Part shown: positions 51,524 through 62,722 of the stretch, piece by piece | How positions within the stretch are numbered: the stretch's first letter is position 1 | Layout: every line of letters begins with the position of its first letter | Assembly (NCBI RefSeq): GCF_041262565.1 | Contig: NZ_JBGCCJ010000001.1 | Coordinates: 3,038,001 to 3,102,000 of the forward strand | From: Leifsonia sp. EB41 | Lineage (GTDB): Bacteria > Actinomycetota > Actinomycetes > Actinomycetales > Microbacteriaceae | Length of the DNA stretch: 64,000 bases | Reading direction: 5' to 3' | The notes under the pieces: model-generated | What the model was told of the DNA's origin: nothing | Databases searched by the model: none | Seen by the model: only the letters and a program-made list of their open reading frames with translations | Made by a program: the position numbers and the translations under genes

Positions 51524-52389
51524 CCTCCGTCGCCTCACCCTCGAAACAACGTTTCGCGCAGTCGGCCGCGACGCGCCTCACCCGCGCCCCGTGGGGCCTC
51601 TACCTCGCGGTCTCCTTCGCCGTGCTGCTCCTCGTCGCGGTCATCGCCCCGCAGCTCCTCACCACTCACCTGCCCACCGCCGTCGACTACGCCGCCGCCC
51701 TCCAGCCGCCGAGCTGGGCTCACCCGTTCGGCACGGATGAGTCAGGGCGTGGCCTCTACACGCGGATCGTGTGGGGCGCACGCGACTCCCTCACCATCGG
51801 GGTGGGCGCCGCGGCCGTGAGCATCGGACTGGCGCTGATCCTCGGCACGCTCGCGGCGCTCGGCGTCAGGCCGGTCGCCGTCGTGATCGACCGGTTCGTG
51901 GAGATCCTGTTCGCCTTCCCCGCCCTCCTGCTCGCGCTGCTTCTCATCGCGATCGCCGGCCCGAGTGCGGCGACGCAGGTCTTCGCGGTCGGCGTCGGCA
52001 CGGCACCGGGTTACGCGCGGATGATCCGCGGGCAGATCCTCGGCGCGCGGAACTCGGCGTACGTGCAGGCCGCGACAGCGCTCGGGCACTCGCGCCGGCG
52101 GATCGTGCGCGCGCACATCCTCCCGAACGCGCTGCGTCCGCTGGTCGCGGTGTTCGCGCTGTCGATCGGCCAGTCGATCGTGTGGGCGTCGAGCCTGTCG
52201 TTCCTCGGGCTGGGCGTCGCGCCGCCCGCATCCGAGTGGGGCGCGCTGCTCGACGCGGGCCGCGCCTACCTCACCACGGCCTGGTGGCTCGTCGTCATCC
52301 CGGGCCTCGTCATCGTCGCGGTCGCGCTGGCCGCGACCACCATCGGCCGGCACATCCAGGCGCGCCTGGAGAAAGGGGAGCGATCGTGA
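51520..52389 (+). CDS. ABC transporter permease (DppC type)
   Basis: This 289-residue permease has six helices, the characteristic HPFGTDESGRGLYTRIVWGARDSLTIGV segment near residue 68, and the EAA loop YVQAATALGHSRRRIVRAHILPNALRPLVAV. It ends with GAPP-like ASEWGALLDAGRAYLTTAWWLVVIPGL. It pairs with the DppB-type subunit. The start overlaps the preceding stop, and the stop overlaps the GTG of the ATPase. Confidence 0.93.
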   Translation: MTSVASPSKQRFAQSAATRLTRAPWGLYLAVSFAVLLLVAVIAPQLLTTHLPTAVDYAAALQPPSWAHPFGTDESGRGLYTRIVWGARDSLTIGVGAAAVSIGLALILGTLAALGVRPVAVVIDRFVEILFAFPALLLALLLIAIAGPSAATQVFAVGVGTAPGYARMIRGQILGARNSAYVQAATALGHSRRRIVRAHILPNALRPLVAVFALSIGQSIVWASSLSFLGLGVAPPASEWGALLDAGRAYLTTAWWLVVIPGLVIVAVALAATTIGRHIQARLEKGERS

Positions 52390-54131
52390 GCATCGCAGAG
52401 CAGAGCACCTCCGAGCAGAGGGCCACCGCCGCCGACCCCTCCACCGACACCGACCGCTCCTCCGACCTCGGCCGCCTCGACTGGCCCGCCGCGCGCCTCC
52501 GCGTGCGCAACCTCCGCACCGGGTTCACCGTGAACGGTGTCCACCGCCCCATCGTCGCAGGCGTCTCCTTCGACCTCCTCCCCGGCCAATGCGTCGCGAT
52601 CGTCGGCGAGTCCGGGTCCGGCAAGTCCGTCACTGCGCGCAGCCTGGTCGGCCTCGCCGGGCGCAACGCCGTGGTGGAGGCCGACCAGCTCGAGCTTCAC
52701 CACGAGGACACCCGCGCTTTCACCCCGCGGCAGTGGCGTCGCGTCCGCGGCCGGGACATCGGTTTCGTCCTGCAGGACGCCCTCGTCTCCCTCGACCCGC
52801 TGCGTCCGGTCGGCGCGGAGATCGCCGAGGCCCTGCGCCTGCACGGCTGGGGGAACCGCGCGGCCCGGAACGCCCGCGTGAAGGAGCTGCTGGAGCGCGT
52901 CGGCGTCCCGAATCCGGCCGTCCGGGCGCGTCAGCGTCCCGACCAGCTCTCCGGTGGCCTCCGGCAGCGCGCGCTCATCGCCTCCGCGATCGCGCTCGAC
53001 CCGGACATCGTGATCGCCGACGAGCCGACCACCGCTCTGGACGTCACCGTGCAGGCGCAGGTCCTCGCGCAGCTGGAGGCCATGAAGGAGCGCGGCGCCT
53101 CCCTCATCCTGATCAGCCACGACCTGTCCGTCGTCGCCCGCCTGGCCGACCACATCCTCGTCATGCGCGGCGGCGAGGTGCTGGAGCAAGGGCCGGCCGA
53201 GCGGGTGCTCGCCGCGCCGGAGCACGCGTACACCCGTGCCCTTATCGCAGCGGTCCCCGGCGAGGCCACCCGGGGACGCGCGCTCACCCCTGGCTCACCC
53301 GCACCGTCACCCCGGCCGCCCCTCGGTGAACCGGTGCTCGAGGCGCACGAACTGGTCAAGCGCTTCCACACCTCCGACGGCACCGTCACCCGCGCGGTCG
53401 ACGGCGTCTCCTTCACCCTCCGCTCCGGCGAGACGCTCGGCATCGTGGGGGAGTCCGGTTCGGGCAAGAGCACGACCGCCAAGCTCGCGCTCGGTCTCGA
53501 GCGCCTCGACGGCGGCGACGTGCGCCTCCTCGGCCAGGAGTGGTCGGCGCTGCCCGAGTCGCGCCGCCGCGCCCTCCGCCGCCGCATCTCGGTCGTCTAC
53601 CAGGACCCGCTGAGCTCGTTCGACCCGCGCTGGACCGTCGAGCGCATCCTGCTCGACGCCCTCCGCCCGGAGAGCTTCCCCGACCGCGCCGCCCGCGACG
53701 CCCGCGTGCGCGAGCTGCTCGGCCAGGTCGGGCTCGGCGTCGAGGTGCTGCCGCGCTTCCCGCTCCGTCTCTCCGGAGGCCAGCGCCAGCGCGTCGCCAT
53801 CGCGCGCGCCCTCGCCCCACGCCCCGACGCGATCGTGCTCGACGAGGCCGTGTCGGCGCTCGACGTCACCATCCAGGCGCAGATACTCGACCTCCTCGTC
53901 GCCCTGCAGCGGGAGTCCGGCGTCGCCTACCTCTTCATCTCGCACGACCTCGGCGTCATCAGCCACCTGAGCGACCGCGTGCTCGTGATGAAGGACGGCC
54001 GCGTCGTTGAGGAGGGCACGGCCGAGGACGTCTTCGAACGACCCCAGCAGACGTACACTCGTGACCTGATCGCCGCGATCCCGGAGTTCGCTCCGGCCGG
54101 CGACCCCCGCAGCCCGGAAGGCGACGCATGA
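52386..54131 (+). CDS. Fused double ABC ATPase (DppD-DppF type)
   Basis: This 581-residue protein has two ABC domains in one chain. Domain 1 (residues ~35-300) has GESGSGKSV, LSGGLRQR and VIADEPTTALD. Domain 2 (~315-570) has GESGSGKST, LSGGQRQR and IVLDEAVSALD. In domain 2 Walker B is DEAV rather than DEPT. The domains are joined by a Pro-rich linker. It energises the two permeases. The GTG start overlaps the permease stop, and the stop overlaps the next gene (ATGA). Confidence 0.94.
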   Translation: MSIAEQSTSEQRATAADPSTDTDRSSDLGRLDWPAARLRVRNLRTGFTVNGVHRPIVAGVSFDLLPGQCVAIVGESGSGKSVTARSLVGLAGRNAVVEADQLELHHEDTRAFTPRQWRRVRGRDIGFVLQDALVSLDPLRPVGAEIAEALRLHGWGNRAARNARVKELLERVGVPNPAVRARQRPDQLSGGLRQRALIASAIALDPDIVIADEPTTALDVTVQAQVLAQLEAMKERGASLILISHDLSVVARLADHILVMRGGEVLEQGPAERVLAAPEHAYTRALIAAVPGEATRGRALTPGSPAPSPRPPLGEPVLEAHELVKRFHTSDGTVTRAVDGVSFTLRSGETLGIVGESGSGKSTTAKLALGLERLDGGDVRLLGQEWSALPESRRRALRRRISVVYQDPLSSFDPRWTVERILLDALRPESFPDRAARDARVRELLGQVGLGVEVLPRFPLRLSGGQRQRVAIARALAPRPDAIVLDEAVSALDVTIQAQILDLLVALQRESGVAYLFISHDLGVISHLSDRVLVMKDGRVVEEGTAEDVFERPQQTYTRDLIAAIPEFAPAGDPRSPEGDA

Positions 54132-56362: not shown

Positions 56363-56401
56363 GATGGCCTCGGATCGGGTGGAAGATGACCTAGAATTAT
56401 G

Positions 56402-56418
56402 GGTGTACGGTGTACACC
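56402..56418. promoter_or_regulatory. TetR operator copy 1
   Basis: GGTGTAC, GGT, GTACACC: perfect 7-base arms with a three-base centre. It abuts a CATAAT -10 box on the minus strand (56391-56396 in the plus sequence ATTATG), so a bound repressor would block the DUF4386 gene. Confidence 0.8.
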
Positions 56419-56428
56419 ACGAACGATA

Positions 56429-56445
56429 GGTGTACGGCGTACACC
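56429..56445. promoter_or_regulatory. TetR operator copy 2
   Basis: GGTGTAC, GGC, GTACACC, differing from copy 1 by one base in the centre and starting 27 bp from it. It lies 32 bp before the TetR start. Confidence 0.8.
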
Positions 56446-56476
56446 TTGTCAATACCCATCGACCGAGGAGCCGCCG

Positions 56477-57172
56477 ATGCCGCAGTCCCCGCGCCCGCGC
56501 CTCACCCGTGACGTCCTGCTCGCCAGCGCCCTCGCCCGCGCCGACGCCGCCGGCCTCGACGCCCTGTCGATGCGCGCCCTCGCCGCCGAGCTCGGCGTCG
56601 TCCCGATGGCCCTTTACAAGCACGTCGCCAACAAGGACGAGCTGATCGACGGGATGGTCGACCTGGTCTGGGCGGAGGTCGAGCCGCCGGCGATCGGCGG
56701 GGCCGCCACTGATGACGGGAGTGCGGGAGCCCCCGCCGTCCCGTGGCACGAGGCCATGCGCGCGCGAGCGACCTCCCTGCGGGCAGCGCTGCGCCGCCAT
56801 CCCTGGGCCATCGGCCTGATGGAGTCGCGCATGCGTCCCGGCCTGGCCAACCTCGCCGCGCACAACGCCATGATGGGCTGTCTCCGCGAGGCGGGGTTCT
56901 CCTTCCGCGCGACCGTGCACGCCACCTCGGTGCTCGACGCCTACGTCTACGGCTTCGCCCTGCAGGAGAAGACCCTCCCGTTCGACACCCCGGAGGAGTC
57001 GGGGGAGGCCGCGGCCGCGAAGAGCGAGACCGTTCCGCCGGAAGTGGCCCTCCGCTTCCCGTACCTCCTGGAGGTCGTGGCCGAGCTGGCCCGGGACGGC
57101 TACGACTACGACGAGGAGTTCGCCACCGGCCTCGACCTCATCCTTCAGGGCATCGAACGTCTCCAGCCCTGA
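56477..57172 (+). CDS. TetR-family repressor with TetR_C_1-type domain
   Basis: This 231-residue protein has a helix-turn-helix (LTRDVLLASALARADAAGLDALSMRALAAELGVVPMALYKHVANKDELIDGMVDLVW) and a C-terminal domain like tetracycline repressor class proteins (WHEAMRARATSLRAALRRHPWAIGLMESR). The ATG at 56477 follows GAGGAG. It is divergent from the DUF4386 membrane protein and presumably binds the two GGTGTAC palindromes between them, controlling both genes. Confidence 0.92.
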   Translation: MPQSPRPRLTRDVLLASALARADAAGLDALSMRALAAELGVVPMALYKHVANKDELIDGMVDLVWAEVEPPAIGGAATDDGSAGAPAVPWHEAMRARATSLRAALRRHPWAIGLMESRMRPGLANLAAHNAMMGCLREAGFSFRATVHATSVLDAYVYGFALQEKTLPFDTPEESGEAAAAKSETVPPEVALRFPYLLEVVAELARDGYDYDEEFATGLDLILQGIERLQP

Positions 57173-57181
57173 CGGCCCTCC

Positions 57182-58105
57182 TCAGTCGAGGTGGTCGAGG
57201 TAGCGGAGGATGATCCCCTCGCGCAGCGCCCACGGGCAGACCTCGAGCACCGGCACGTCGAACGCGCGCATCGCCTCCCGCAGCACGACGCCGCCCGCGA
57301 CGATCTGAAAGGTCCGGTCCGCCGTGATCCCCGGCAGCGCGGTGCGGGCGTCGGCCGTGAGCTGCGCCAGGCGGGGCACCCAGTCCGCGAGCTCCGAGCG
57401 GCGCAGGAGGCTGCGCTCGGTCCCGCCCGGGCCGCTCGCGGTCGAACCGGCCAGGCGGGCGAGCGAGCGGATGGTCTTGGAGGTGCCGATCACGTGCGCG
57501 GGCCCGCTGTCGGTGAAGCGTCCGACCGCGTCGGCGAGCGTGGTCCTGGCATGGTCGCGGAGGGCGGTGACCTGGTCGGCGGTCGGCGGGTCCTGGTGCA
57601 GGAACCCGATCGTGCTGCGGCCGGCGCCCAGCGGAAGCGAGACCGCGGTGTCGGGGTACTCGTCGACGCCCGCCGCGATCTCGAGCGAGCCGCCGCCGAT
57701 GTCCATCAGGAGGATGGAGCCGGCCGACCAGCCGGACCAGCGCCGCACGGCGAGGAACGTCAGCCGTGCCTCGTCCTCGCCGGAGAGCACCTGGAGGTCG
57801 ACGCCCGTCTCGTCCAGAATGCGAGCCAGGATCGCGGGGCCGTTGGCGGCCTCCCGGATCGCCGAGGTCGCGAACGGCAGCAGCTCTTCGATGCCTTCGG
57901 CGCGGCCGACCTCGACCGCCGACCGGATCGCCTCCAGGATCGCGGTCTCGCCCTCGGCGCTGATCGCACCGTCCTCGGTGATGTAGCGCATGAGCCGCAG
58001 CACGGACTTGTGCGTGGCCGCAGGGAGGGGGCGTGCGCCCGGGTGCGCGTCGACGACGAGAAGGTGGACGGTGTTCGATCCCACATCGAGGACTCCGAGT
58101 CGCAT
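57182..58105 (-). CDS. Ppx/GppA family phosphatase
   Basis: This 307-residue member of the actin-like ATPase superfamily begins RLGVLDVGSNTVHLLVVDA, then FATSAIREAANG, the catalytic-type SGEDEARLTFLAVRRW, the phosphate-binding LLMDIGGGSLEIAAG, and IVAGGVVLREAMRAF near the end. It hydrolyses polyphosphate or (p)ppGpp 5' phosphate; short single-domain forms like this are usual in actinobacteria. The minus-strand box TACTGT six bases before the ATG suggests leaderless translation. Confidence 0.9.
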   Translation of the reverse strand: MRLGVLDVGSNTVHLLVVDAHPGARPLPAATHKSVLRLMRYITEDGAISAEGETAILEAIRSAVEVGRAEGIEELLPFATSAIREAANGPAILARILDETGVDLQVLSGEDEARLTFLAVRRWSGWSAGSILLMDIGGGSLEIAAGVDEYPDTAVSLPLGAGRSTIGFLHQDPPTADQVTALRDHARTTLADAVGRFTDSGPAHVIGTSKTIRSLARLAGSTASGPGGTERSLLRRSELADWVPRLAQLTADARTALPGITADRTFQIVAGGVVLREAMRAFDVPVLEVCPWALREGIILRYLDHLD

Positions 58106-58177
58106 AGTCAGACAGTAGTGGTCGGGGAGGCCGCTCGCGACACGCCGTTTTCTCGTGCCACACGCGGCCCGGGAGGG

Positions 58178-58192
58178 CGACACGCCGTGTCG
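58178..58192. promoter_or_regulatory. Isolated palindrome in the ppx-peptide gap
   Basis: CGACACG, C, CGTGTCG: an exact 15-base palindrome with a one-base centre, in the 267-bp gap between the Ppx/GppA and small-peptide genes. A second hairpin (GTCCCG 58225-58230 and CGGGAC 58239-58244) follows. Function unknown; nothing else was seen in this gap apart from the peptide promoter. Confidence 0.35.
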
Positions 58193-58276
58193 ATGTACCC
58201 AGTTCGGAGGTGGGTTTGTCGGTGGTCCCGCGTATTCTCGGGACTGTCGAACACGGTCCCGAAAAAATCGCCCAAA

Positions 58277-58310
58277 CACTACATGTAGTGGAATGACAAT
58301 CGTGTCATTC
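58277..58310. promoter_or_regulatory. Two abutting perfect palindromes at the peptide promoter
   Basis: CACTACATGTAGTG (58277-58290) is a 14-base perfect palindrome with no gap. It is followed without spacer by GAATGACA, ATCG, TGTCATTC (58291-58310), 8-base perfect arms. The second overlaps the likely -35 box ATGACA (58293-58298). They look like two operator sites. Confidence 0.7.
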
Positions 58311-58322
58311 GGGTTATATAGT
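58293..58322 (+). promoter_or_regulatory. Promoter of the small peptide gene
   Basis: ATGACA (-35, 58293-58298, five of six consensus bases) is followed by TATATA (58315-58320) or TATAGT (58317-58322), giving a 16- or 18-base spacer. Its AT-rich -10 region is one of the strongest-looking in the window. Confidence 0.65.
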
Positions 58323-58372
58323 GGGTAAACACCGCGAGACGCGCGAGTGACAAGATTTCTGGGGAGGCCATC

Positions 58373-58456
58373 ATGGACTACGAAAACGACACCGTCGGCG
58401 GCTATGCGGTTCCGGTCGACCCGATGGACCTGCTGCAGTGCGACAGCTGCCAGTAG
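58373..58456 (+). CDS. Orphan 27-residue peptide ending in Cys-x-x-Cys-Gln
   Basis: A 27-codon frame starts at ATG 58373, nine bases after the start of an ideal ribosome binding site, GGGGAGG. The peptide begins Met-Asp-Tyr-Glu-Asn-Asp, is acidic, contains GGYAVPVDPMDLL, and ends QCDSCQ before TAG. It has its own promoter with two palindromes and a perfect terminator 18 bases after the stop, so it is monocistronic and probably highly expressed. The N-terminal acidic stretch and C-terminal CxxC resemble leader and core of a modified peptide, but no maturase is adjacent. A metal-binding or redox peptide is the alternative. Confidence 0.7.
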   Translation: MDYENDTVGGYAVPVDPMDLLQCDSCQ

Positions 58457-58474
58457 TCCGCTGACGACAGCTTC

Positions 58475-58507
58475 GAGAACCCCGGCGCCGAGTGCGCCGG
58501 GGTTCTC
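58475..58507 (+). terminator. Intrinsic terminator of the small peptide gene
   Basis: Perfect 14-base arms GAGAACCCCGGCGC (58475-58488) and GCGCCGGGGTTCTC (58494-58507) with a five-base loop, followed by a T-rich CCGTTTTCC. This is the clearest intrinsic terminator in the window. Confidence 0.9.
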
Positions 58508-58573
58508 CCGTTTTCCTGGGAGCACATTCCGGGGGAGCCCGGGTCGCCTAGGGCGCTTGCGTAGAATCGTCGG

Positions 58574-59020
58574 GTGCCAGTGAATCCAGAGCTCGTGGGT
58601 CGGAGCTTCCCGCCCACCCCTCCGTATCTCGTCGGCCGTGAGAAGGTGCGCGAGTTCGCCGCCGCCGTGCTCGCGACGGATCCGATCAGCTTCGACGTGG
58701 CGGCCGCCCAGGCCGCGGGCCATGCCGACCTCGTCGCGCCGCCCACCTTCGCGGTCGTGGTTCAGCAGCTCACGCTCGACCAGCTCCTCGCCGACCCGGA
58801 GGCGGGCATCGACTTCAGCCGCGTCGTCCATGGCGACCAGCGGTTCACGTTCTCACGTCCGGTGATCGCGGGCGACGAGCTGACGGCGACGCTGACCGTC
58901 ACCGCGGTCAAGTCGCTCGGCGCGCACAGCATGGTCACTGCCGAGTCGGTGATCGTGGACGGTGCCGGCGATCACGTCGTCACCTCCATTTCCACCCTGG
59001 TCGTGCGAGGAGACGAGTGA
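58574..59020 (+). CDS. FAS1-like/MaoC-type dehydratase subunit, HadA-like
   Basis: This 148-residue hot-dog-fold protein starts VPVNPELVGRSFPPTPPYLVGREKVREFAAAVL, typical of the N-terminal MaoC-like dehydratase (HadA/HadC) subunits that lack the catalytic His and help bind the acyl chain. VVHGDQRFTFSRPVIAGDELTATLTV is the fold's core. The next gene encodes the catalytic subunit, so together they form a (3R)-hydroxyacyl dehydratase, here before murB as in related actinobacteria. The GTG is six bases after TAGAAT (leaderless). Confidence 0.87.
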   Translation: MPVNPELVGRSFPPTPPYLVGREKVREFAAAVLATDPISFDVAAAQAAGHADLVAPPTFAVVVQQLTLDQLLADPEAGIDFSRVVHGDQRFTFSRPVIAGDELTATLTVTAVKSLGAHSMVTAESVIVDGAGDHVVTSISTLVVRGDE

Positions 59021-59445
59021 TGGCCGCCCCCGATTTCGACGCCCTGACCGTCGGCGACGTCGTCGCCGAGCGCTCGTTCGACCTCAGCCGCGACGCCCTC
59101 GTCCGCTACGCGGGCGCCTCCGGCGACTTCAATCCGATCCACTACCGCGACGACGTCGCGACCTCGGTCGGCCTTCCCGGCGTGATCGCGCACGGGATGC
59201 TGACGATGGGCCTCGCCGTCCAGCCGGTGGTCGACTGGGCCGGCGATCCGGCGCGTGTCGTGGACTATCAGGTGCGCTTCACCCGCCCGGTGGTCGTGGA
59301 CCCGGCGGAGGGCGCGAGCGTGCAGGTCACGGCCAAGGTCGGGCAGCTCGACGCAGAGGCCAGGGTCGCGCGCATCGACCTCACGACGACCTTCAACTCC
59401 GAGACCGTGCTCGGCAAGGCGCAGGTCCGCGTCTCGCTCGCGTGA
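59020..59445 (+). CDS. MaoC-type hydratase/dehydratase, HadB-like catalytic subunit
   Basis: This 141-residue hot-dog protein has the hydratase-2 motif YAGASGDFNPIHYRDDVATSVGLPGVIAHGMLTMG, with the catalytic Asp (FNPIH) and His. It pairs with the preceding HadA-like subunit to dehydrate 3-hydroxyacyl thioesters. The start overlaps the previous stop (TGATG), with GAGGAGA a few bases before; the stop overlaps the murB GTG. The host is not known to make mycolic acids, so a general fatty-acid role is likely. Confidence 0.9.
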   Translation: MAAPDFDALTVGDVVAERSFDLSRDALVRYAGASGDFNPIHYRDDVATSVGLPGVIAHGMLTMGLAVQPVVDWAGDPARVVDYQVRFTRPVVVDPAEGASVQVTAKVGQLDAEARVARIDLTTTFNSETVLGKAQVRVSLA

Positions 59446-60590
59446 ACGACGAGATGACCGCGACGACGCCCCTGTCGGAGCTCACGACCATGCGGGTCGG
59501 CGGCGTTCCGGAGACCCTGGTCGCCCCCGCGGACACCGACGCGCTTGTCGCGGCCGCCCAGGAGGTCTGGGCGGAGGGCGCGGACTGGCTGCTGCTCGGC
59601 GGCGGCTCCAACACCGTCGCGAGCGACGAGGGCTTCGAGGGAACGGTGATCCGCGTGGTGACCCGCGGGGTCGAGCGCCTCGAGGCGCCGGAGGGCCGCG
59701 TACGTCTGCGGGTGCAGGCCGGCGAGCCCTGGGACGACGTCGTCGCGCTGACCGTCCGAAACGGCTGGTCCGGCATCGAGGCGCTTTCCGGCATCCCCGG
59801 GTCGACCGGCGCGGCTCCGGTGCAGAACATCGGCGCCTACGGCCAGGAGCTCGAGTCGGCGCTGCTCGGCGTCGACTTCCTGGACGCGAGCACCGGGGAG
59901 GTCCGTCGCCTGTCTCGTGCGGACCTGGACCTGGGATACCGGACCTCCGCGCTCAAGCGCGGCTTGCTCGGCATCGTGCTCACGGTGGATCTGGAGCTCG
60001 CGGACAACTCGGTGCCCGGCGGCGTCGGGGCGCCCCTCAGCGCCCCAGTCGCCTACGCACAGCTCGCCGACTCGCTCGGCGTGCCGCTCGGGTCGCGCGT
60101 GCCCGTCGCCGAGCTCCGCCGGGCCGTACTCGCGCTGCGCGCCTCGAAGGGGATGGTGCTCGACCCGGCCGACCCGGACTCGGTCAGCGCGGGAAGCTTC
60201 TTCACCAACCCCATCGTCTCGGAGTCGTTCGCGCGGGGCCTGCCGGCGAACGCGCCCCGCTGGCCTGTGACGCCTCCGGAGCCGGACATCGTGATCGGCC
60301 TCCCGGCAGGCGGCGTCCACCCGATGGACATCCCGCCGCTCGCCGACGGCCCGTACGACGTCAAGCTCTCGGCAGCCTGGCTGATCGAGAACGCGGGAAT
60401 CCGCCGTGGGTTCTCCCTGCCGGGCTCCGGCGCCGGCATCTCGTCCAAGCACACGCTGGCGATCATCAATCGCGGCCACGCGAGCGCAGCGGACATCGGA
60501 CAGCTCGCCTCCTTCATCCAGAGCAGGGTCCAGGCGGAGTTCGGGGTGTTGCTGCACCCGGAGCCGATCCTCGTCGGGATGACGCTCTGA
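59442..60590 (+). CDS. murB: UDP-N-acetylenolpyruvoylglucosamine reductase
   Basis: This 382-residue flavoenzyme has the FAD-binding LLLGGGSNTVASDEGFEGTVI, the GWSGIEALSGIPGSTGAAPVQNIGAYGQE region, the active Ser in SAGSFFTNP, and a long C-terminus ending HPEPILVGMTL, as in type I MurB. It reduces UDP-GlcNAc-enolpyruvate to UDP-MurNAc with NADPH, an early step of peptidoglycan synthesis. The GTG start overlaps the HadB-like stop (GTGA). Confidence 0.95.
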   Translation: MNDEMTATTPLSELTTMRVGGVPETLVAPADTDALVAAAQEVWAEGADWLLLGGGSNTVASDEGFEGTVIRVVTRGVERLEAPEGRVRLRVQAGEPWDDVVALTVRNGWSGIEALSGIPGSTGAAPVQNIGAYGQELESALLGVDFLDASTGEVRRLSRADLDLGYRTSALKRGLLGIVLTVDLELADNSVPGGVGAPLSAPVAYAQLADSLGVPLGSRVPVAELRRAVLALRASKGMVLDPADPDSVSAGSFFTNPIVSESFARGLPANAPRWPVTPPEPDIVIGLPAGGVHPMDIPPLADGPYDVKLSAAWLIENAGIRRGFSLPGSGAGISSKHTLAIINRGHASAADIGQLASFIQSRVQAEFGVLLHPEPILVGMTL

Positions 60591-60602
60591 CCGCACCCCC
60601 GG

Positions 60603-62722
60603 TCACGCCCGTAGCGCCGCCGCGAACGGCAGCACCGCTCCCGCACCTGCCCTGCGCAGCTCGCGCCCGGCCACGGTGACCGTCCAGCGGCTGTCGATGA
60701 GGTCGTCGACGAGCAGCACCGGCGCACCGGCGGGGACGTCGAGCCCTGACGCGTCGAACCGGTCCCAGACTCCCGCGAGCCGGTACGTGCTGTTGCCGCC
60801 GGGACCTCCCGACGGGCCGCCGCCGCGGAGCGCGAGAGCGCCGAGGTAGGGGAGCCGACCGATCTGCGCCAGACCGCGCGCGAGGCTGTCGGTGAAGCGC
60901 GGCCGGCCGCGCGACGGCAGGGCGACCACTGCAGTGGGGCGGCTCGCCCAGCCCCAGTCGGCGAGCACCTGCACGCACGCTTTCAGGATCTCGGGAGGGC
61001 ACTCGCCGTCCGGCGCTTCGGCGTCGAGGAGCTGCCGCAGGCGTCCGCCCCAGCCGAGGTCGGTGAGCCGTGCGAGCACCCGTCCCGGCTCGACCTGCTC
61101 GCCGGGGGCGATCTTGCCCCGCACGGGCACGCCGAGGCTGTCGGCGCCGGTCGGCCACAGCTTGCGCGGTTCGACGGGGACGCCGACCCGGTCGAGCTCC
61201 GCTGTGATGGTCTCCCGCGCGTCCGCGGCGACTCCCGCCGGATACCACTCGCCGGCGCAGCGGTCGCAGCGGCCGCACGGGCCGGCGTCGGGATCGTCGA
61301 GCTGCCGCTGCAGGAACTCCATGCGGCAGCCGGTGGTGGTCTCGTAGTCGAGCATCGCCTGCTGCTCGGCCTCCCGCGCCGCCGCGATCCGCTCGTAACG
61401 GTCGCGGTCGTACTCCCACGGCCGTCCCGTCGACACCCAGCCGCCCGGCACGCGCCGCACCGCGCCGTCGACGTCGAGCACCTTGAGCAGCAGTTCGAGC
61501 GTGGACGAGCGCAGGTCGACCCGGCTCTCCAGCACCCGCGTGGACTGCACCTGGTCGCTCAGCGCGCCGAGCAGGGCTGTCGCCTTCTCCTCCGTCGGCA
61601 TGGCCGCCGTCGCGAAATACCGCCAGATCGCACTGTCTTCCGGGCCCGGCAGCAGCAGGACGTCCGCCGACTCCGTGGCCCGCCCTGCGCGGCCGACCTG
61701 CTGGTAGTACGCGACAGGGGAGGACGGCGCTCCGAGGTGCACCACGAATCCCAGGTCCGGCTTGTCGAAGCCCATGCCGAGGGCGCTGGTGGCGATGAGG
61801 GCCTTGACCTCGTTGCGTTTCAGCCGCCCCTCCAGCTCTTCCCGTTCGGCCGGATCGGTCTGCCCGGTGTAGGCGGCGACGTCGTGGCCCGCGCGGCGCA
61901 GCACACGCGCCGTGTCGTCCGCCGCCGACACGGTGAGCGCGTACACGATCCCGCTGCCAGGGAGGTCCGCGAGATGGCCGGCGAGCCAGGCCAGGCGTGC
62001 GGTCGCGTCCTCGAGCGCGAGGACGCCGAGCCGCAGAGACCGGCGCGCCAGCGGCCCGCGGATGGTGCGCACCGTCGCCGCGAGCGCCGAGCCGACGAGC
62101 TGTTCCTCGACGTCGGCCACCACCCGTTGATTCGCCGTCGCGGTCGTCGCCAGCACCGGGATGCCCTCCGGCAGCGCGGCGACGAGGTCGCGCAGCCGCC
62201 GGTAGTCCGGCCGGAAGTCGTGCCCCCAGTCGGAGATGCAGTGGGCCTCGTCGATGACGAGCAGTCCGCAGCGCTCGACCAGGGCCGGGAGCTGCTGGTC
62301 GCGGAAGTCCGGATTGTTCAGGCGCTCCGGCGACACGAGGAGGACGTCCACGGTGTCGTCGCGCAGCCGGGCGGCCACGTCGTCCCATTCGTGCCGGTTG
62401 GCCGAGTTGATCGACAGAGCGCGCACGCCCGCCCTGGCCGCGGCCTCCACCTGGTCGCGCATGAGGGCAAGGAGGGGGGAGACGAGGATGGTCGGCCCCG
62501 CGCCCCGCTCGCGCGCAGCAGCATCGTCGCCACGAAGTACACCGCCGACTTGCCCCATCCGGTGCGCTGCACGACCAGAGCCCTGCTGCGATCGTCGACG
62601 AGAGCCGACACCGCCTCGAACTGCCCGTCGTGGAACGCCGCGTCGGGGCGGCCGACGAGCGCGCGGAGGCGGCTCAGGGCTCGATCGCGGGTGGTCTCGG
62701 GGACGGTGTCTGTGGTGCTCAT
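60603..62722 (-). pseudogene. recQ: RecQ-family ATP-dependent DNA helicase with PRTase-like tail, frameshifted
   Basis: The full gene runs from ATG 62722. The first ~75 codons, with Walker A-like VQRTGWGKSAVYFVATMLLRAS, are in one frame. The rest, from GPTILVSPLLALMRDQ onward, is in another. Loss or gain of one base in the G/C tract at 62495-62506 would join them. Downstream are DEAH (LLVIDEAHCISDWGHDFRPDYRRL), TSALGMGFDKPDLGFVVH, the CGRCDRC zinc site, and a C-terminal phosphoribosyltransferase-like segment (VLLVDDLIDSRWTVTVAGREL). Sequence error or a real break; everything else is intact. Confidence 0.8.

Follow-up and report, generated by a model that had tools for sequence, protein, structure and literature searches.

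A 27-codon gene in the genome of Leifsonia sp. EB41 very probably specifies, as a free peptide under separate regulation, a copy of the redox tail found at the C-terminus of NrdA, the large subunit of class I ribonucleotide reductase (RNR). The gene lies in a stretch of 64,000 nucleotides, called here the window, which was analysed as a whole. The first-pass annotation of this DNA had proposed a RiPP precursor, a metal-binding peptide or a signalling peptide, and this has been replaced by a detached NrdA redox tail because NrdA proteins of other actinobacterial families carry a sequence of this kind fused at their C-terminus.

The peptide gene and its surroundings

The features of the locus are collected in Table 1. 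A real, tightly built and easily missed gene of 27 codons had been described at first pass, together with back-to-back perfect palindromes, a promoter, a GGGGAGG element and a 14-bp hairpin; all these elements are present, and the gene itself is borne out by the conservation of its promoter, SD sequence, terminator and reading frame.

Table 1. Features of the peptide locus, in window coordinates
Feature	Position	Strand	Basis or remark
NrdR-like box 1, ACACTACATGTAGTGG	58276..58291		box pair in 87/90 standalone loci; NrdR gene in genome
Inverted repeat GAATGACA-N4-TGTCATTC (perfect 8-4-8), between the boxes	58291..58310		left arm contains the -35
Sigma-70-like promoter, ATGACA (58293-58298), 18 bp, TATAGT (58317-58322)	58293..58322	+	sequence; consensus of aligned promoters
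NrdR-like box 2, TCGGGTTATATAGTGG	58309..58324		starts 33 bp after the start of box 1; 17-bp spacer; overlaps the -10
Ribosome binding site GGGGAGG	58361..58367	+	sequence
Putative NrdA-tail peptide gene, standalone, 27 aa, MDYENDTVGGYAVPVDPMDLLQCDSCQ	58373..58456	+	ORF; CxxC redox pair at C-terminus
Intrinsic terminator hairpin, 14-bp perfect stem, 5-nt loop	58475..58507	+	sequence

The sequence CACTACATGTAGTG is a perfect 14-bp palindrome (58277-58290) and directly abuts the inverted repeat at 58291-58310. In the 64 kb of the window, with a GC content of 73%, there are 19 perfect 14-bp palindromes and two perfect 8-4-8 repeats, against means of 15.1 and 3.1 in 10 mononucleotide shuffles, and each promoter palindrome alone is within chance expectation for this length and composition. 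Singly at chance level, the two are made meaningful by their conservation across the loci of the family. A hairpin with a 14-bp stem and a 5-nt loop occurs once in the window, against a mean of 0.0 in such shuffles.

The window peptide has no Pfam family above the cut-off and no match in NCBIfam, PHROG or PDB. With its 27 residues and no Pfam or NCBIfam redoxin match it does not belong among the redoxins (thioredoxin, NrdH, glutaredoxin), and no Rfam family matches at the gathering threshold anywhere in the window. The six neighbour genes scanned (56399-62558) encode TetR, Ppx/GppA, FAS1-dehydratase, MaoC, MurB and helicase proteins; a maturase or transporter, which the first-pass annotation had proposed to look for, was not found among these six, nor was a peptidase. 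An ABC-transporter-like ORF was seen by eye at 51771-54131, about 4 kb from the peptide gene and outside the six.

The host NrdA and the tail copies in the same genome

The 4.16-Mb single-contig genome of the host has one RNR large subunit, 96% identical to the NrdA of Leifsonia sp. Leaf336. It is recognized in Pfam by PF02867, PF00317 and PF03477 (barrel, all-alpha and ATP-cone) and scores below the cut-off of the class II model TIGR02504. The protein ends ...PARRGFGFGGLTSNTPAGGEK, with no C-terminal cysteine and no CxxC. Only four cysteines are found in the whole frame, three of them in what we take to be the catalytic contexts (SNCFV, SNLCTE and CNLASINL), and there is none in the C-terminal linker. 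The gene for NrdB (PF00268) adjoins nrdA and its product has no second domain by Pfam.

Five matches to the window peptide are present in its own genome. Between nrdA and nrdB lies a tail ORF of 25 aa, MNSTKIEEYYVPVDPMDDLQCESCQ, the ATG of which overlaps the nrdA stop (TAATGA); tails in this position are called operonic below. The cysteine pair by which class I RNRs are normally re-reduced is thus missing from the NrdA chain and is found on small peptides instead. Two tail ORFs, at G000:C1:3211143-3211211 (L004) and 2797989-2798057 (L006), follow small HTH genes (one scanned as HTH_17, the other recognized by eye) and look like mobile-element copies. At G000:C1:3263827-3263898 (L007, L418) a 110-residue open frame has a tail-like C-terminus, ...LATIDPQDNLQCDSCQ, after another domain; the last 85 residues of this frame have no Pfam match.

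Split NrdA and operonic tails across the family

The family (Microbacteriaceae) was sampled with 199 genomes, and NrdA was found in 91 of them. Its end was readable in 89, G022 and G101 being dropped (contig edges). None of the 89 ends carries CxxC or CxC, any cysteine at all is seen in a single one, G009, in a frame-broken reading, and the family proteins end after a linker RRGFGFGGL... that has no cysteine pair. Fused tails inside the family, hinted at by long open frames, were rejected: the frames proved to be of the kind that arises by chance in high-GC DNA, and not one of the NrdA ends that were read has CxxC.

A tail ORF follows nrdA in 82 of the 89 genomes, its stop 62-180 nt past the nrdA stop, and all three frames relative to nrdA are used (68, 9 and 5). 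In 61 of these 82 the tail ORF has an in-frame start that overlaps the nrdA stop, and in 19 more such a start lies within 28 nt after it (80/82 in total), an arrangement as in translationally coupled genes, to judge from the predicted starts and stops. The seven genomes without a tail call at nrdA include G183, at a contig end, and G009, in which the frame is broken and the tail match lies right there. Similar results were obtained for named relatives (80 loci, one unreadable), which include Leifsonia, Clavibacter, Salinibacterium and Microcella: CxxC was found on 0/79 NrdA and a tail ORF in 76/79, the loci with no tail in reach being Naasia lichenicola (L144, NZ_SSSM01000005.1), L196 at a contig end and L203. 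The predicted proteins thus show the split of the tail from NrdA to be general in the NrdA of this family.

Fused tails outside the family

Outside the family, 21 loci in all carry the tail in frame on NrdA. In the class-level search this was the case for 20 of 22 outside-family loci, with NrdA motifs in the same frame; the two left out are L400, where the locus ends near the match, and L414, which is not a tail. The NrdA of one genome outside the family (G402) ends ...DTEMVGGVACPVDPMERLQCESCQ, with the tail fused, and the order-level sample of 248 genomes gave 15 matches besides the window's own genome, all in frames of 873-1098 aa. The fused NrdA proteins of other actinobacterial families end ...ACPVDPxERLQCESCQ, and this ending shows the predicted window peptide to be homologous to their C-terminus.

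In a tree of 52 NrdA cores the 31 split and the 21 fused proteins fall on opposite sides of one branch, with support of 94/88 and presence in 95% of the bootstrap trees, which is consistent with the split NrdA having arisen by one fission. The branch of one viral NrdA (L331) is very long, and an insertion in the gene is the probable reason.

Unlinked tail copies across the family

The peptide gene had been called an orphan, a description that does not hold, as 97 of the 199 family genomes match the window peptide at E<=1. All 91 genomes with NrdA have a tail match (weakest E 4.2e-8), and 87 of these have an unlinked tail gene like that of the window, unlinked meaning away from nrdA or, in fragmented assemblies, on another contig. 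Because gene and promoter recur in 87/91 NrdA genomes and NrdA itself is without a tail, the reading of the window locus as a decaying nrdA remnant was rejected. Among the 90 standalone loci an SD of at least 4 nt is present in 86, an ATG start in 87 and a hairpin terminator in 75; the SD and ATG counts lean upward because the script that picks the starts favours both. Loss of the reading frame in relatives had been named at first pass as the result that would speak against the gene. The frame is kept, with a pN/pS of 0.24 over the last 23 codons of the standalone copies, and 12 of the last 14 positions are at least 96% identical among the 90 unlinked copies. Moreover, the importance attached from the beginning to the cysteine pair was well placed, both residues being invariant in the 90 unlinked copies as well as in the operonic tails. 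Mean identity over the last 20 residues is 0.89 among unlinked copies, 0.73 among operonic copies and 0.73 between the two types, and the N-terminal half is better conserved in the unlinked than in the operonic ones. A FAS1-dehydratase homologue lies within about 1.5 kb of 72 of the 90 unlinked loci.

No unlinked copy was seen in four of the 91 genomes (G104, G162, G012 and G156, with completeness of 97, 91, 82 and 88%), so that this copy may be dispensable where an operonic one exists. Five genomes (G053, G123, G177, G138 and G015) have no tail at nrdA, and their copies lie elsewhere. In three of them, G053, G015 and G177 (100, 98 and 88% complete), a single large subunit is accompanied by a single significant tail match, located away from nrdA; a second match in G177, at E 0.48, was taken as chance. 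If NrdA works in these three genomes, the unlinked tail, being the only one, must be the working tail there. G123 combines a single large subunit with two strong tail matches, both away from nrdA, and two further matches at E 0.01-0.02, and G138 is a weaker case for action in trans because a second large subunit is present.

This NrdA is absent from 108 family genomes, 102 of which have another large subunit. G113 and G172, among these 108, have strong tail matches and no large subunit was found in them, and four have weak tail matches (E 0.016-0.6). One of these four is G141, which has another large subunit; a tail-like SCPVDSMDELNCDSCQ in a 16-codon frame, perhaps a remnant, was observed there at G141:C18:26842-26886 (L404) and scores 1.6e-6 against the tail profile.

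NrdR-like boxes and promoter conservation

The genome of the window has a NrdR gene (TIGR00244). Of the 90 standalone tail loci (89 family genomes), 76 have a pair of NrdR-like boxes in the 150 nt upstream, against 4/2445 random windows and 1/1800 shuffled upstreams; with the limit set at 400 nt the number is 87, against 0/1280 control windows. The boxes within 150 nt are spaced by 33 bp in 73 of the 76 pairs and by 32 in the other three, which corresponds to a 16-17-bp spacer. Upstream of nrdA a like box pair is present in 94 of 109 sequences, drawn from two partly overlapping sets, and 80 of these pairs are 32 apart (control 0/1280). The consensus of 82 standalone promoters aligned on the 33-bp pair is AAaCACtAcATgTAGtGGAATGACAnnngTGTcATTCccGTTATATAGTG. 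The inner inverted repeat has at most one mismatch per arm in 70 of these 82 promoters and, beyond its -35, is perhaps the site of a second regulator.

The NrdRs tested in PMC12051234 bind box pairs with 14-17-bp spacers, and the NrdR regulon described there shares with the genes here a promoter that carries two 16-bp boxes separated by 16-17 bp. Two boxes with a 14-17-bp spacer at the promoter and an encoded NrdR, the mark of a NrdR-regulated gene, are found in the sequence here, and we infer that the window gene is under NrdR control. Searches of the open PMC literature brought up no paper that names a tail peptide among NrdR targets.

Phages, viral contigs and plasmids

In a search of 50,697 phage records, six match at E<=10: four from Clavibacter (two phages), one from Pontimonas and one from a 'Pseudanabaena' phage. 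The tail ORFs of Pontimonas phage phiPsal1 and of Clavibacter phages CMP1 and CN1A (the last only at E 3) are all unannotated. The complete record of phiPsal1 has no RNR annotated, and neither NrdA nor NrdB was found in it by tblastn (best E 0.29); in CMP1, covered except for about 1.7 kb inside a tail-protein gene, no RNR is annotated or was found. CMP1 encodes a thymidylate synthase and a nucleotide kinase. The phage recorded from Pseudanabaena, a cyanobacterium, has an annotated hypothetical protein of 27 aa (L209 1993-2076; ON968453.1, Pan2_27) with the tail-like sequence DPADLVSCESCQ.

A DNA-pattern scan of IMG/VR for DPMxxLxCxxCQ followed by a stop matched at least 120 stretches. The residue two before DPM, which is outside the pattern, is P in 120/120 viral loci among the matches listed. 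Among the same listed matches the stop-to-stop frame has at most 60 codons in 88/120, is longer (up to 208) in 31 and runs to a contig edge in one; the starts of the 31 are unsure because their frames exceed 60 codons. By a crude test, an SD of at least 4 nt is absent in 37 of the first 80 viral loci listed. NrdA is present on one (L331) and NrdB on four of the 120 listed loci, for which 0.97 Mb was covered. In L331 (9828-13977) the tail ORF stands upstream of nrdA, unjoined, and nrdA ends without CxxC and is followed by nrdB; this nrdA is interrupted by about 0.9 kb, intein-like by position. In L348 (3885-4969) a viral tail ORF lies just before nrdB, and nrdA is absent from the 3.9 kb upstream.

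Matching plasmid records amount to 19, of which 15 are from Clavibacter, three from Leifsonia and one from Gryllotalpicola. The tail copies of phages and plasmids mostly have no nrdA on the DNA examined, and several are unannotated or wrongly annotated. A plasmid tail peptide of 33 aa (L420 4462-4563; NZ_CP065038.1, WP_223361114.1) is misnamed 'ribonucleotide-diphosphate reductase subunit beta'.

Proposed function

The disulfide formed in the NrdA active site at each turnover would be reduced in trans by the CxxC of the free peptide, the C-terminus of which would slot into the active site as the fused tails of other class I enzymes do. Thioredoxin, NrdH or a similar redoxin would then re-reduce the tail peptide. 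When NrdR is off its boxes, at low dATP, the unlinked copy would raise the supply of tail together with NrdA, and tail-only phages and plasmids would supply tail to the NrdA of their host. What the sequences show directly is the homology, the split, the co-occurrence with NrdA and the arrangement of the boxes; the translation of the tail, its binding to NrdA, the transfer of electrons, NrdR control and the benefit to the phage are predictions drawn from them, and a free peptide of 25-30 residues may bind NrdA weakly. In Bacillus subtilis NrdE, as described in PMC6572854, the six C-terminal residues were caught in the active site with the carboxylate mirroring a substrate phosphate, and a separate NrdJb is reported as required for re-reduction in class II (PMC4520616). 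By analogy, a short free peptide with an end like that of NrdE could reach the active site of NrdA.

A broader proposal, which we consider reasonably probable, is that this class I RNR is an enzyme of three parts, the third being a redox peptide of some 25-30 residues that can dissociate, controlled by NrdR and portable on phages and plasmids, where it would plug into the host RNR and perhaps monopolise it. In such an enzyme the tail would have its own gene copies, NrdR control and portability because the peptide acts in trans.

Alternative explanations

The operonic tail might be the one that catalyses, the unlinked window copy being a regulator, that is, a competitor or a redox sensor at the tail site of NrdA that tunes its activity. 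The closer likeness of the unlinked copies to each other (0.89 vs 0.73) and their more conserved N-terminal half suggest an added constraint, and the unlinked copy has its own promoter with an extra conserved palindrome. Nevertheless G053, G015 and G177 have their sole tail gene unlinked next to one CxxC-less large subunit, both cysteines are invariant in operonic and unlinked types alike, and the NrdR-type boxes shared with nrdA argue for a positive co-factor, which makes such a regulator improbable. Recoding at the nrdA stop, by frameshift or read-through, might still yield a fused NrdA and leave the free copies as by-products, as could be thought from the tail ORF lying closely behind the nrdA stop in 82/89. 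However, the use of all three relative frames (68, 9 and 5 of 82) speaks against a conserved recoding, 80/82 tails have an in-frame start overlapping or shortly past the nrdA stop, five genomes have no tail at nrdA, and two isolated phages have a tail with no nrdA on the DNA examined, so that recoding is very improbable. It may also be that a CxxC-less NrdA is re-reduced without any tail peptide.

A short acidic peptide with a terminal CxxC would fit a RiPP precursor or a metal-binding or signalling peptide, the first-pass reading, but there is no maturase, peptidase or transporter in the six scanned neighbours, the presence of the tail tracks that of NrdA, and the homology to fused NrdA tails and the NrdR-type promoter point elsewhere; we regard it as very unlikely. 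A strong promoter, a hairpin and conserved upstream elements could also belong to a small RNA in which the ORF is incidental. This is hardly credible against a frame conserved at 12/14 of the last positions (>=96%) with a pN/pS of 0.24, an SD in 86/90 loci and a window free of Rfam matches at the gathering threshold.

Relation to known systems and significance

All class I RNRs are said to have a C-terminal pair in NrdA (PMC6187632), class I enzymes are described as carrying it almost exclusively on NrdA (PMC9669993), and CXXC is given for 1737 of 2022 class I sequences (PMC9531940). Searches of the open PMC literature brought up no account of a class I tail encoded on its own. The closest known system is the split class II NrdJa/NrdJb of Pseudomonas aeruginosa and its relatives (PMC4520616, PMC5704485, PMC9669993). 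As these papers describe it, there too the catalytic chain has no re-reducing cysteines, and another polypeptide with a gene of its own brings them for thiol-disulfide exchange. That system, however, is a class II, B12-dependent enzyme with a folded NrdJb, whereas here class I NrdA and NrdB are combined with a tail of about 25-30 residues, and there are in addition a second, unlinked copy with NrdR-like boxes and copies on phages and plasmids. On its predicted proteins, the window system is a split RNR with a separate re-reduction part and is not a member of the NrdJa/NrdJb family. The fused tail of class I NrdA/NrdE, as in B. subtilis NrdE (PMC6572854), has the same presumed chemistry but is on one chain. 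Split phage RNR genes such as nrdA-a/nrdA-b of Aeh1 (PMC3653736) also present an RNR in pieces in a phage setting; in that type, as described there, the RNR gene of the phage itself is mostly interrupted by introns, inteins or homing endonucleases, whereas here phages bring the tail alone.

RNR, an essential enzyme, has been the subject of much study, and its re-reducing cysteines are assigned to the large subunit in the literature, as represented by PMC6187632. A clade with the tail on a free peptide would make this part separable, so that a synthetic peptide could be used to measure its binding, stoichiometry and redox partner directly. The tail peptide could rank among the smallest essential subunits of any enzyme. 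That several phage and plasmid copies are unannotated or wrongly annotated suggests that a piece of an essential enzyme can escape gene callers. In addition, the tail-only genes of phages point to a minimal way of acting on the DNA-precursor supply of the host.
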